DNA from: a bacterium | GTDB taxonomy: Bacteria; Patescibacteriota; Saccharimonadia; Saccharimonadales; DATKHC01 | Length of the DNA: 50,313 nucleotides | Reading direction: 5' to 3' | Assembly (NCBI GenBank): GCA_021781215.1 | Contig: JAJXXC010000010.1 | Coordinates: 1-50,313, forward strand | Shown: in pieces, positions 27,188-39,393 of the stretch | How positions within the stretch are numbered: position 1 is the stretch's first letter | Layout: each line of letters starts with the position of its first letter | Position numbers and translations under genes: made by a program | Notes under the pieces: model-generated | What the model was told of the DNA's origin: nothing | The model's database searches: none | What the model saw: only the letters and a program-made list of their open reading frames with translations

Positions 27188-29833
27188 ATGGCTAAAACTA
27201 AACGTGTCTGGCTTTTCCGCGAAGGCAATGCAACCATGCGTGATCAGTTAGGTGGTAAGGGCGCTAACTTGGCCGAGATGACCAATATTGGCTTACCAGT
27301 ACCCCCGGGCTTAATCATTACTACCGATACTTGTAATCAATATATTAATTTAGGTGAGAAGATTCCCAATGGATTAATGGAAGAGGTAAAAATCGCCTTG
27401 TCTGATGTTGAGTTAGCAATTGGTAAGAAACTTGGAGATCCGTCCAATCCCCTGCTAGTTTCCGTAAGATCAGGGGCTAAATTTTCAATGCCTGGGATGA
27501 TGGATACGATTTTAAATCTGGGCTTAAATGATGAAATTACTGATGCGCTAGTTAAAATCACCAAAAACCCACGTTTTGTATATGATTCATACCGACGTTT
27601 TTTGATGATGTTTTCTGACGTAGCCTTGTCGACTCCAAGTAATAAGCTTTCTAAGCACCATTTCGAAGAACTGTTTAATAACCTAAAAAATGAATTGGGA
27701 GTTAAAGATGATCTAGAAGTTGATATTGATAACCTTAAAGAATTAATCAACCGCTACAAGGCCCATATTTTAAAGGAGACCGGTAAGGCATTCCCTCAGG
27801 ATGTTTATGAGCAACTTAAACTATCAATCGAGGCAGTATTTAAGTCATGGAATAATGAACGAGCTAAAGTATACCGTAAACGTGAAAAGATATCAGATAG
27901 TTTGGGCACGGCAGTAAGTATCCAGTCCATGGTTTTTGGCAATATGGGCAAGGATTCTGGAACCGGCGTAGCTTTTACTAGAAATCCAGCAACCGGAGAT
28001 AACAAAGTATTTGGTGAGTATTTAATGAACGCTCAAGGTGAGGACGTCGTTGCTGGAGTTAGAACACCAGTTCCAATATCAAAACTGGCTAGCAAAATCC
28101 CAGTTATCTATCAAGAATTTCAAAATATATGCAAAAAGCTCGAAACTCATTATAAAGATATGCAAGACATTGAGTTTACCATAGAGCATGGCAAACTCTA
28201 TATCTTACAGTGTCGCAACGGTAAACGTAGCGGAATCGCAGCAGTAAAGATTGCCGTTGATATGGTACATGAAAAACTTATAGATAAAACAGTAGCTCTA
28301 ATGAGAATAGATCCCGAACAATTAAATCAATGTCTGCATCCGATAATTGCACAAAGTAATAACTACACTGTGATTGCCACTGGCCTCCCTGCTGGTCCCG
28401 GTGCGGCAACTGGCTTAGCGGTTTTTGATGCTAATCGGGCAGCAAGACTGGGTAAGGGCGGCAAGGGTCAAAGAGTAATACTAATAAGAGCTGATACTAG
28501 TCCGGATGATCTCAAAGGTATGCTGGCATCTGAAGGTGTGCTGACTGAACGTGGTGGTATGACATCGCATGCTGCTCTAGTTGCTCGTGGCTTTGGTATT
28601 CCAACGATTGCGGGCTGCTCATCAATTAAAGTAGATATCGATAAACGTCAATTAACAATCAATAACATAACTATAAAAGAAGGTGATCCTATTTCTTTGA
28701 ACGGTTCGACCGGAGAAGTGATAGATGGTACCGTTGAAGTAGTAGACCCAGCGTTAACTAGTGAATTCACAGAATTGATGAATTGGGCTGATGCAGCACG
28801 TAAATTAGGCGTAAGAGCTAATGCAGATACTCCAGAAGACGTTTCATTGGCTATTAAATTTGGGGCGGAAGGTATAGGCCTTTGCCGTACCGAACATATG
28901 TTTTTTGCTAGTGACAGGCGCCCAATTGTTCAAGACATGATTTTAGCTAATACTGATGTACAGCGTAAGATTGAGCTAGACAAGCTATTAGTATTCCAAA
29001 GGAAAGATTTTAAGGACATTTTTATGACACTTAACGGTCGACCGGCCACGATTCGTTTAATTGACCCGCCCCTACATGAGTTTTTGCCTAATTTAGAAGT
29101 GCTGATAGAAGAAGTCGCTACAATTAAAGCCAAAGGTAATCACGACAAACAAAAGGAAGACTTATTGAATAAAGTTAGATCAATCCATGAGGTAAATCCG
29201 ATGATGGGTTTACGTGGCTGCCGTTTATCTATAGTATTTCCTGAAATTGTTGAAATGCAGACTAGAGCAATTTTCGAAGGAGCAATTGAAGCTATGAAAT
29301 CTGGAACTAAAGTTCGACCTGAGATTATGATTCCACTCGTAGGTGACGTTAATGAACTAAAGTGGGTAAGAATAAAATTAGAAAAAATCGCAAAACAAGT
29401 AATAGAATCATCCAGCTACAGCATTCCCTATGCATTTGGAACGATGATAGAAGTACCTCGTGCTGCACTAACAGCTAAAGCAATTGCTGAACATGCTGAT
29501 TTTTTTTCATTCGGAACTAACGATCTGACTCAGATGACTTTTGGTTTTTCGCGAGATGATTCAGATAGATTCTTTAAAACTTACTTAGATAAGAAAATTT
29601 TAGATGAAGACCCTTTTGAGACCATTGATCAGCTGGGTGTTGGTCAATTAATGAAGCTAGCTGTAGAGAACGGTCGTTCAGTCAATTCAAAATTGAAATT
29701 AGGTATATGTGGCGAGCACGGAGGTGAACCAAAGTCTATTACTTTTTGTCATAATATTGGCTTAGATTATGTTAGTTGTAGCCCCTATCGAGTGCCAATA
29801 GCTCGTCTAGCTGCTGCTCAAGCTAATCTTTAG
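27188..29833 (+). CDS. ppdK: Pyruvate, phosphate dikinase
   Basis: GGKGANLAEM...; catalytic GGMTSHAALVARGFGIPTIAG; C-terminal TIM-barrel LGICGEHGGEPKSI. Confidence 0.97.
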   Translation: MAKTKRVWLFREGNATMRDQLGGKGANLAEMTNIGLPVPPGLIITTDTCNQYINLGEKIPNGLMEEVKIALSDVELAIGKKLGDPSNPLLVSVRSGAKFSMPGMMDTILNLGLNDEITDALVKITKNPRFVYDSYRRFLMMFSDVALSTPSNKLSKHHFEELFNNLKNELGVKDDLEVDIDNLKELINRYKAHILKETGKAFPQDVYEQLKLSIEAVFKSWNNERAKVYRKREKISDSLGTAVSIQSMVFGNMGKDSGTGVAFTRNPATGDNKVFGEYLMNAQGEDVVAGVRTPVPISKLASKIPVIYQEFQNICKKLETHYKDMQDIEFTIEHGKLYILQCRNGKRSGIAAVKIAVDMVHEKLIDKTVALMRIDPEQLNQCLHPIIAQSNNYTVIATGLPAGPGAATGLAVFDANRAARLGKGGKGQRVILIRADTSPDDLKGMLASEGVLTERGGMTSHAALVARGFGIPTIAGCSSIKVDIDKRQLTINNITIKEGDPISLNGSTGEVIDGTVEVVDPALTSEFTELMNWADAARKLGVRANADTPEDVSLAIKFGAEGIGLCRTEHMFFASDRRPIVQDMILANTDVQRKIELDKLLVFQRKDFKDIFMTLNGRPATIRLIDPPLHEFLPNLEVLIEEVATIKAKGNHDKQKEDLLNKVRSIHEVNPMMGLRGCRLSIVFPEIVEMQTRAIFEGAIEAMKSGTKVRPEIMIPLVGDVNELKWVRIKLEKIAKQVIESSSYSIPYAFGTMIEVPRAALTAKAIAEHADFFSFGTNDLTQMTFGFSRDDSDRFFKTYLDKKILDEDPFETIDQLGVGQLMKLAVENGRSVNSKLKLGICGEHGGEPKSITFCHNIGLDYVSCSPYRVPIARLAAAQANL

Positions 29834-31359: not shown

Positions 31360-31596
31360 TTAGTTAGTAGTGCCCATAACTACTTTTGTGGCAGTTTGTC
31401 CAATTCTCATTAAGAGTCTCATGTCATTTAAAGGCCTTGCATCTAGATAATCAGCAATATCTGATTCAGCTCGTCTACGATATGACGCTACAAGATTACG
31501 TTCTGAATAATGTCCAAAACTTGATACGCATCCATGTCCTACTGAGGTATAAACGTTATACCAAGGATTAGACAGCTTTGGTTCTATATATGGTTC
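31360..31596 (-). pseudogene. Start-less coding-like frame downstream of, and -1 relative to, the 31584-32039 gene
   Basis: EPYIEPKLSNPWYNVYTSVGHGCVSSFGHYSERNLVASYRRRAESDIADYLDARPLNDMRLLMRIGQTATKVVMGTTN*; no ATG/GTG/TTG in its first 50 codons or so. Absent from the ORF track. Confidence 0.5.
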
Positions 31597-32039
31597 TCAT
31601 CAACTATATCAACGGACAGATTAGGAGTTAGATGCACTACGGCTTGGTTAATAACGTCGTGAATCTTAAATTTACTACCATATCTTTCAAAGGTATATAG
31701 TTGGCCTCTAAATACCGGTTGGCCATTTTCTCTTCTAGTTATTGCATCTTCATAGATGTAGGTGCCAGAAGGTGGGAACGAAACCATAGCTTCGTCACCG
31801 TAAGTATTATGAATTTCTATTTTTAGAGGTCTACTGTCTTCTGGATTCTTGGTAGTTACTTCAAGTATTTGTCCAATAGGTGCGTTATATGAATTTACCA
31901 AAGGCCAAAGCATATCTATCATCGCCATGAATTCTTCTGAGCGCTCACTAGCTTCTGTGGCTAGCTGACCCAGTGATCTCATCGTCTCTAAGACTCTGAA
32001 TTCTAATTCGTGTGGGTTTTTAGTTACTATTTCTGACAT
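31584..32039 (-). CDS. Hypothetical protein
   Basis: 151-aa ORF with coding-like composition (MSEIVTKNPHELEFRVLETMRSLGQ...). Confidence 0.65.
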   Translation of the reverse strand: MSEIVTKNPHELEFRVLETMRSLGQLATEASERSEEFMAMIDMLWPLVNSYNAPIGQILEVTTKNPEDSRPLKIEIHNTYGDEAMVSFPPSGTYIYEDAITRRENGQPVFRGQLYTFERYGSKFKIHDVINQAVVHLTPNLSVDIVDENHI

Positions 32040-32053
32040 ATACGTATATTCAA

Positions 32054-32225
32054 CTACTTTTTAGGTCGGTGAGCAAGCATTAGGGTTATATTTACATATA
32101 GTAATAATTTTTTCTTACTTTCTATTAGTCCAGACAACCTCGTGAACTGATTTCGCCTCGTTAAATCTTTTAAGAGTTGTAAGGCAGATCCGGACCCATT
32201 GTTCCCCTTAGGGCAGCAAGCTGTG
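32054..32225 (-). pseudogene. Diverged gene-end fragment, copy A
   Basis: GEQWVRICLTTLKRFNEAKSVHEVVWT, then frame disruption and ..LMLAHRPKK*; related to 36964-37122. Confidence 0.45.
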
Positions 32226-32574
32226 CTGCTGCATTTATTGATTTGTCAGCATCTGATCCTATGAGGTCGTCATGGAGGCGTGTTATTTGGGCTTTGAGTG
32301 AATCACTGTAGTCTCTAGCTACTGCATGAGCCCCTGCTTTAGCGAAGCCATCCGAAGCGCTGGTCTTTTTAGTACCTTTATCAACTCCACCTATGTCAGT
32401 ACTACCACTTTTTCTAGCGGTATAGGCCTGAGTTTGTGACGCCTCTTCTCGTAGTGTGGTATCTTTACCGTATGTTCTATCAAGGGCGTTATCTATGAAT
32501 GTACCAGCTCCGATTGGACCAAGTGCCCTCCACTTATTTGCAGAAGCGGGGAGTATGGTGTTTGAACTATTCCG
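32170..32574 (-). pseudogene. 134-codon start-less coding-like frame, in frame after the TAA of 32575-32907
   Basis: RNSSNTILPASANKWRALGPIGAGTFIDNALDRTYGKDTTLREEASQTQAYTARKSGSTDIGGVDKGTKKTSASDGFAKAGAHAVARDYSDSLKAQITRLHDDLIGSDADKSINAAAQLAALRGTMGPDLPYNS*; the only ATG is near the 3' end. Confidence 0.55.
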
Positions 32575-32907
32575 TTATTTATTGATTCGTGCTGCAATCG
32601 CATATTGCGTAAAATATCTGTCCAAACTGCTTAGCTCGTTAGTTGATGGGCTTTCTTTGTATATAACTGTAAGAAATTGATCTCTTGATCTAAGAACTTC
32701 TTTTGACCTTATTGACTTAGCGTTAATCAGTTGGTCTATTGTCACATCGAACAAATCTAGAGCACGTATGATTGAGTTTTCCAAGTTCTGTTTATTATTT
32801 TGTTTTTTTGAATTAATTGCTCTACCAACTTCGCTAGAAATATTACCCATTTGATCGAAAATAGACATTTTTGACCATTTGGCTCTATCTACTTGATAAG
32901 TAATCAT
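32575..32907 (-). CDS. Helical hypothetical protein, partner of a DUF5674-like gene
   Basis: VDRAKWSKMSIFDQMGNISSEVGRAINSKKQ...ALDLFDVTIDQL; ATGA overlap with the upstream gene. Confidence 0.7.
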   Translation of the reverse strand: MITYQVDRAKWSKMSIFDQMGNISSEVGRAINSKKQNNKQNLENSIIRALDLFDVTIDQLINAKSIRSKEVLRSRDQFLTVIYKESPSTNELSSLDRYFTQYAIAARINK

Positions 32908-33245
32908 TTTGTAATAATTTCACTTACTATGTCTGTAATTTGATTCTGGATATTGGGGTTTTCTACACTTCTGGACATATTTTGTTGTCTAGGTCGGATA
33001 TTGATCATTGAGTCAAATTCAATAAAATTCTCAGTTCCATAATTTGCAGGATGTAGGTTAATTCCCCATAGACTATTTTGTTGTGATCCGTGTTCTAAAA
33101 GGTATTGTTCTCCGTCAACATGCATCTCAGCGTCAATAACCATAATTTTTTTGTCAATATCAACGACAGCTTTTACTATATTTCCATACATTTTGTCTGA
33201 TAATGTTTGAAGTTCGCTAACTGATATAGAATTCACTTGTTTCAT
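32904..33245 (-). CDS. DUF5674-like protein
   Basis: KAVVDIDKKIMVIDAEMHVDGEQYLLEHGSQQNSLWGINLHP...FIEFDSMINIRPRQQNMSRSVENPNI; family name from memory. Confidence 0.7.
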   Translation of the reverse strand: MKQVNSISVSELQTLSDKMYGNIVKAVVDIDKKIMVIDAEMHVDGEQYLLEHGSQQNSLWGINLHPANYGTENFIEFDSMINIRPRQQNMSRSVENPNIQNQITDIVSEIITK

Positions 33246-34307: not shown

Positions 34308-34423
34308 GACTATACCATGACAGCAAGTAGACAGATTAGATAAGGACTTAGGATTATAGGGGTCTACAGTTAAGCGTTATACTCCCTAAATTAGGAAACC
34401 CTACTTGCTGTCATGGTATAGTC
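34308..34423. repeat. Perfect 23-bp inverted repeat flanking a 70-bp spacer
   Basis: gactataccatgacagcaagtag (34308-34330) and its exact reverse complement ctacttgctgtcatggtatagtc (34401-34423). Confidence 0.95.
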
Positions 34424-36431: not shown

Positions 36432-36947
36432 TTAGTTACTAAAGCCCATACCAGCATTTGGTTCAAAATCTTTTCTGTTGTCTGATCTTTTCGCGACAAG
36501 AAGTTTGGTAAGCAAATCGGCCCGACTACGTATATTATTAACCTCATATCTGGAGTGCTCAATGTACCGACGACGTGAATATTCGAAACCTACTGTTGAG
36601 GCAATTCCCAATCCCAAGACTGGTACTGCAGCTACTGTACCGCTTTTGATCCATTCACCAGCACCACCTACCAAGGCAATCATCAAGACAGTTGCACCAA
36701 ACATCCTTGTTCGATTAGGAATCCGATGTGCTGCTTCTTCATAGTCTTGTTCGGCTCGATCTCTTATATCTTCAATCATTTTTTCGCTAATCTGTTCTAG
36801 GGTAATTGGCGTATCATCATGTTTTGGTTCCCCGATTATTTGTCTTGGAGTTGCCGAAAAGAGGTATTTGCCATCGGCAAAATATGAGGTGTCGGTTGTG
36901 ATTGACTCTCTAGTTTCTTTTGTGATAATTGGTAACCGTTCATCCAT
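36432..36947 (-). CDS. Hypothetical membrane protein
   Basis: Two adjacent hydrophobic segments (MFGATVLMIALVGGAGEWI, GTVAAVPVLGLGIASTVGF). Confidence 0.65.
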   Translation of the reverse strand: MDERLPIITKETRESITTDTSYFADGKYLFSATPRQIIGEPKHDDTPITLEQISEKMIEDIRDRAEQDYEEAAHRIPNRTRMFGATVLMIALVGGAGEWIKSGTVAAVPVLGLGIASTVGFEYSRRRYIEHSRYEVNNIRSRADLLTKLLVAKRSDNRKDFEPNAGMGFSN

Positions 36948-36963
36948 ATATAGGGTATATTAA

Positions 36964-37122
36964 CTACTTTTTGGTATCGTATGCAAGCATTATCGTTTTA
37001 TAAGTAATAACTTTTTCAGGCTCTAGAGCAACAGTCCAAACAATCTCATCAACTGATTTTGCTTCATTAAATTTCTTTATGGTTGTAGTTAGAATTGGCT
37101 GGGGAATGGTTCTGGAATCAAA
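36964..37122 (-). pseudogene. Diverged gene-end fragment, copy B
   Basis: FDSRTIPQPILTTTIKKFNEAKSVDEIVWTVALEPEKVITYKTIMLAYDTKK*; no canonical start before the last quarter. Confidence 0.45.
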
Positions 37123-39319: not shown

Positions 39320-39393
39320 TGGCTGGGAAGAAGGGACTCGAACCCCTGCTGCCGGGACCAAAACCCGGTGTCCTACCACTAGACGACTTCCCA
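39320..39393 (-). tRNA. tRNA-Gln(TTG)
   Basis: TGGGAAG...CCGGG-TTTTGGT-CCCGG...AGGGGTTCGAGTCCCT-CTTCCCA-G-CCA: acceptor, anticodon and T arms pair; CCA encoded. Confidence 0.95.

Follow-up and report, generated by a model that had tools for sequence, protein, structure and literature searches.

The startless frame at 32173..32574 (minus strand) of the window, the whole stretch of 50,313 nucleotides that was analysed, is very probably a remnant of about 400 bp of a gene coding for a VirB6-like channel protein of a type IV secretion system (T4SS). It would have been left by recombination behind a complete pair of genes, coding for a DUF5674 protein and a 110-aa protein, and is probably transcribed and untranslated. 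A frame overlooked by start-based gene callers is now accounted for, and a false lead to stop readthrough is removed. A second, divergent version of the secretion-system channel gene is also indicated, either formerly present in the lineage or transferred in. Beyond this, the work is routine genome archaeology.

On the minus strand, 134 codons are open from 32574 to 32173, with a TAA codon at either end (32575-32577 and 32170-32172). The sequence-only reading had described a 134-codon in-frame ORF past ...YAIAARINK-TAA, and both its coordinates and its description were right. The sole in-frame ATG, GTG or TTG is the ATG of codon 126 (32199), in agreement with the claim that no start occurs until near the 3′ end. 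Rare-start triplets are present, with ATA at codons 7, 27 and 61, among others, and ATC at codon 21. As in a gene remnant, a translation start is therefore lacking up to codon 126 as far as ATG, GTG and TTG are concerned, rare starts being possible. Given the base composition, the chance of 134 open codons is about 9e-4 per single frame.

The genome itself (716,862 bases in 10 contigs, reported to be 99.99% complete) was then searched and gave exactly two matches, the fragment itself and G000:C6:138037-138432. The latter lies within a large open frame and shares 71% aa identity with the fragment over 132 residues (E = 5.6e-54). This resident gene (G000:C6:136432-138648; L003:6433-8652) has a 739-aa product, to residues ~536-667 of which the fragment aligns. 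The TAA at 32170..32172 (minus strand) ends the fragment a few codons past the last homology to the resident gene. At the DNA level, identity is 70% and all indels are multiples of three. The resident gene is by far the nearest relative of the fragment (71% identity versus 31-33%). Over 122 aligned codons, 25, 16 and 69 differences were counted at first, second and third positions, respectively (chi-square p = 3e-10). The coding origin is settled by the match to the 739-aa protein gene together with these third-position-biased differences.

The several transmembrane segments of the resident protein are reflected by hydropathy peaks, which are confined to residues 6-323. Downstream of its gene are found a PrgI-family gene (PF12666, E = 1.5e-8), a 284-aa gene and a VirB4/TraG-type ATPase gene (P-loop_TraG, E = 6e-28). 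On the other side are a T4SS-pilin-like gene and genes for small membrane proteins. Homologues of PrgI/VirB3, VirB4 and VirB6 are widespread in the type IV secretion loci of Patescibacteria (PMC12102498), and the resident locus is of this kind. We label the protein VirB6-like by position and topology because a curated PF04610 match is absent: no Pfam family was matched by the 739-aa protein, and the full-domain TrbL/VirB6 matches of two relatives of this protein are weak and below the cut-off (E = 0.033 and 0.13). A PDB search using the VirB6-like alignment gave no match. The fragment falls within the soluble C-terminal part, with a maximum 19-residue hydropathy of 0.59, and contains no membrane-spanning channel domain.

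Homologues from three other families of the order (G015, G122 and G003) showed that the domain extends past the fragment on both sides. In these proteins, the region equivalent to the fragment is flanked by conserved motifs, AVGFT before and NQ.IIN.AL...GV after. Neither motif was found in any frame around the fragment. Homology therefore breaks off inside the domain, as in a gene remnant, with both domain edges lost. The explanation favoured earlier, a 5′-truncated gene joined behind a complete one, is supported by the homologues. It was nevertheless incomplete, as the 3′ end is also cut and the source protein can now be named. No remaining parts of a split VirB6-like gene were detected elsewhere within the window. 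No match to the fragment was obtained in Pfam, PHROGs or NCBIfam, in scans of genome contigs and viral contigs, or by tblastn against plasmids and phages. Among 393 genomes of the order, no orphan copy of the domain was seen; only the resident gene, the fragment and four long proteins carry it.

The gene in front of the fragment is intact. It codes for a conserved 110-aa protein of unknown function (32575..32907, minus strand), starts with ATG and is the second gene of the pair. It overlaps by 4 nt the likewise intact DUF5674 gene (32904..33245, minus strand; PF18924, E = 1.4e-29). A literature search for DUF5674 returned no paper naming it. The 110-aa protein occurs in 17 other genomes of the order, with identities of 37-81% (81% in G122), and the DUF5674 gene adjoins it in G122 and at most other homologue loci examined. 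All 17 homologues have stop-to-stop frames of 106-128 codons, and their matches extend to query residue 108-110. For 15 of the 17, the ends were inspected directly; those of L008 and L012 rest on match extent and stop-to-stop frame. Moreover, the DNA alignment of the pair with that of G122 (82% identity) ends at the stop codon. Since the 17 homologues and this alignment finish there, the TAA at 32575..32577 (minus strand) is the native end of the 110-aa gene, and the upstream protein, which had been thought to look complete, is so.

To place the fragment in time, it was compared with the resident gene by three methods, giving dN of 0.20-0.22, dS of 1.1-1.9 and dN/dS of 0.10-0.20, a ratio that is approximate because dS is near saturation. 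On these figures, the neutral share of the path between the two copies would be at most about 10-20%. The low dN/dS therefore indicates that the fragment mostly evolved within an intact, selected gene and that truncation came late. That the frame is open from end to end counts against a dead remnant, but under random substitution it would stay open 27% of the time after about 50 changes and 10% after 100. The still-open frame therefore fits recent truncation, and is no proof of death. Residues shared with an outgroup and kept by one copy alone were more often kept by the resident copy (resident:fragment = 7:4, 5:2 and 11:2); the outgroups are not independent and 11:2 alone is nominally significant. 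This weak excess of fragment-side changes, non-significant in two of three comparisons, would fit recent relaxation. An intact source gene is absent from the nearly complete genome, as the search had only its two matches. The source may be either an old second copy since lost or an imported piece of a relative's gene; the comparison covers one genome of the family.

The two frames are adjacent and in phase, as would be seen if stop readthrough or programmed recoding joined the 110-aa protein and the fragment into one protein via the TAA. However, the in-frame phase is expected by chance in one case out of three, and none of the 17 homologues continues beyond the position of the TAA. The fused homologues without the TAA that the sequence-only reading had proposed to look for were found in 0 of 17 cases. 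In addition, the downstream homology is to an interior domain of a membrane channel and not to any extension, and the RNA fold around the stop is ordinary (z = 0.09). Readthrough, put forward earlier as an option, thus appears extremely unlikely. Adjacency and common phase would equally result from a single gene interrupted by the TAA, through a nonsense mutation or an assembly error. To this option, also raised earlier, we give practically no credence, as each part comes from a family of its own that is complete without the other. The resident VirB6-like protein has no 110-aa-like region, and the domain of the fragment is never seen in the 110-aa family. With a native TAA, neither a nonsense split nor readthrough is needed, and because the gene in front is unrelated and complete, the fragment is better viewed as an ordinary broken-gene remnant.

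Other explanations accept the VirB6-like origin. A functional small protein made from the soluble domain, with a non-standard start such as the ATA of codon 7 (32556), would agree with the intact frame and with strong past purifying selection. We consider it very unlikely in view of the lack of ATG, GTG or TTG before codon 126, the loss of the conserved motifs at both domain edges, the count of 0 orphan domain copies in 393 genomes and the outgroup residues more often kept by the resident copy. A simple duplication within the genome, copying part of the resident gene and followed by neutral evolution, is suggested by the resident gene being the nearest relative by far, but is highly improbable: a dN/dS of 0.1-0.2 with near-saturated dS cannot be reconciled with one copy having drifted neutrally for long. 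The source must therefore have been a separately evolving intact gene, which was either an old paralogue that has since disappeared or an orthologue acquired by import. Finally, the fragment shares with the resident gene a perfectly identical stretch of 26 nt near its 3′ end. This stretch would be a recombination foothold if the fragment were a silent donor cassette recombining into, and diversifying, the variable soluble C-terminal domain of the resident protein, a role for which we see hardly any chance.

Overall, the fragment is most likely a dead remnant. A divergent copy of the VirB6-like gene, lost or imported, would have supplied it, and recombination would have placed an internal piece of about 400 bp, the soluble C-terminal domain minus both domain ends, directly behind the stop of the 110-aa gene. 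The piece would then probably be transcribed as the tail of the DUF5674/110-aa operon and would stay untranslated because ribosomes halt at the native TAA, behind which there is no usable start.

The fragment is located in a variable stretch (about 31.3-39.3 kb) between conserved genes and a tRNA-Gln(TTG) gene (39320..39393, minus strand) that forms its border. The stretch contains mostly orphan ORFs and a Phd-type antitoxin gene; no relative of the 151-aa ORF adjoining the fragment was seen in the other genomes searched from the order. In G122, which belongs to another family, a 28-nt sequence resembling the tRNA-Gln 3′ end lies directly behind the DUF5674 pair, and a cluster of helicase, Fic and toxin-antitoxin-like genes also adjoins the pair. 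A similar degenerate tRNA 3′ end was searched for just past the stop in the present genome, where the best local score (19, the next being 18-16) was at chance level. Between the two genomes, identity is 81-84% for the DUF5674 pair, 71% for the replicative helicase DnaB and 43% for the VirB6-like protein. Horizontal movement of the pair is suggested because its identity exceeds those of the two other proteins.

Some further observations were made in the window. A second protein-like frame at 31363-31551 (minus strand; 63 codons read, 78 open; ...YTSVGHGCVSSFGHYSERNLVASYRRRAESDIADYL...) lacks a start codon near its beginning, and the genomes searched from the order gave no relative; the frame is perhaps another remnant in the same variable stretch. 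At 34308-34423, the variable stretch also carries a unit of 116 bp bounded by perfect inverted repeats of 23 nt. It resembles a MITE, or a mobile unit of the cassette type that lacks a transposase of its own. One end of this unit matches C7:14538-14618 at 95% identity over 81 bp. On C7, a segment of about 980 bp containing three small ORFs lies between similar inverted ends (13639 and 14616), beside a tRNA-Glu gene. Six copies of the end repeat were counted in the genome and none in the control. Two 40-nt repeats, 75% identical (32052-32091 and 36962-37001), each lie just upstream of a minus-strand orphan ORF (31584-32039 and 36432-36947) and are possibly a shared promoter region. The pyruvate phosphate dikinase encoded at 27188-29833 (plus strand) is 74% identical to that of an Armatimonadetes-labelled contig (L130), the best among the matches listed, and gene transfer is possible.

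Like the VirB6/TrbL inner-membrane protein of the patescibacterial MPF-FATA T4SS (PMC12102498; PF04610), the resident protein is polytopic and its gene is near PrgI (VirB3) and VirB4 genes. The fragment differs from such a protein in that it is the soluble C-terminal piece only, with no membrane region, start or ends. As the window gave neither an integrase nor, at the far edge of the stretch, a second tRNA-Gln end, we infer the tRNA-adjacent island from its setting, and in this respect the case departs from gene remnants known from such islands. In being startless, cut at both ends and set amid orphan genes and a Phd-type antitoxin gene by a tRNA-Gln gene, the fragment resembles them.
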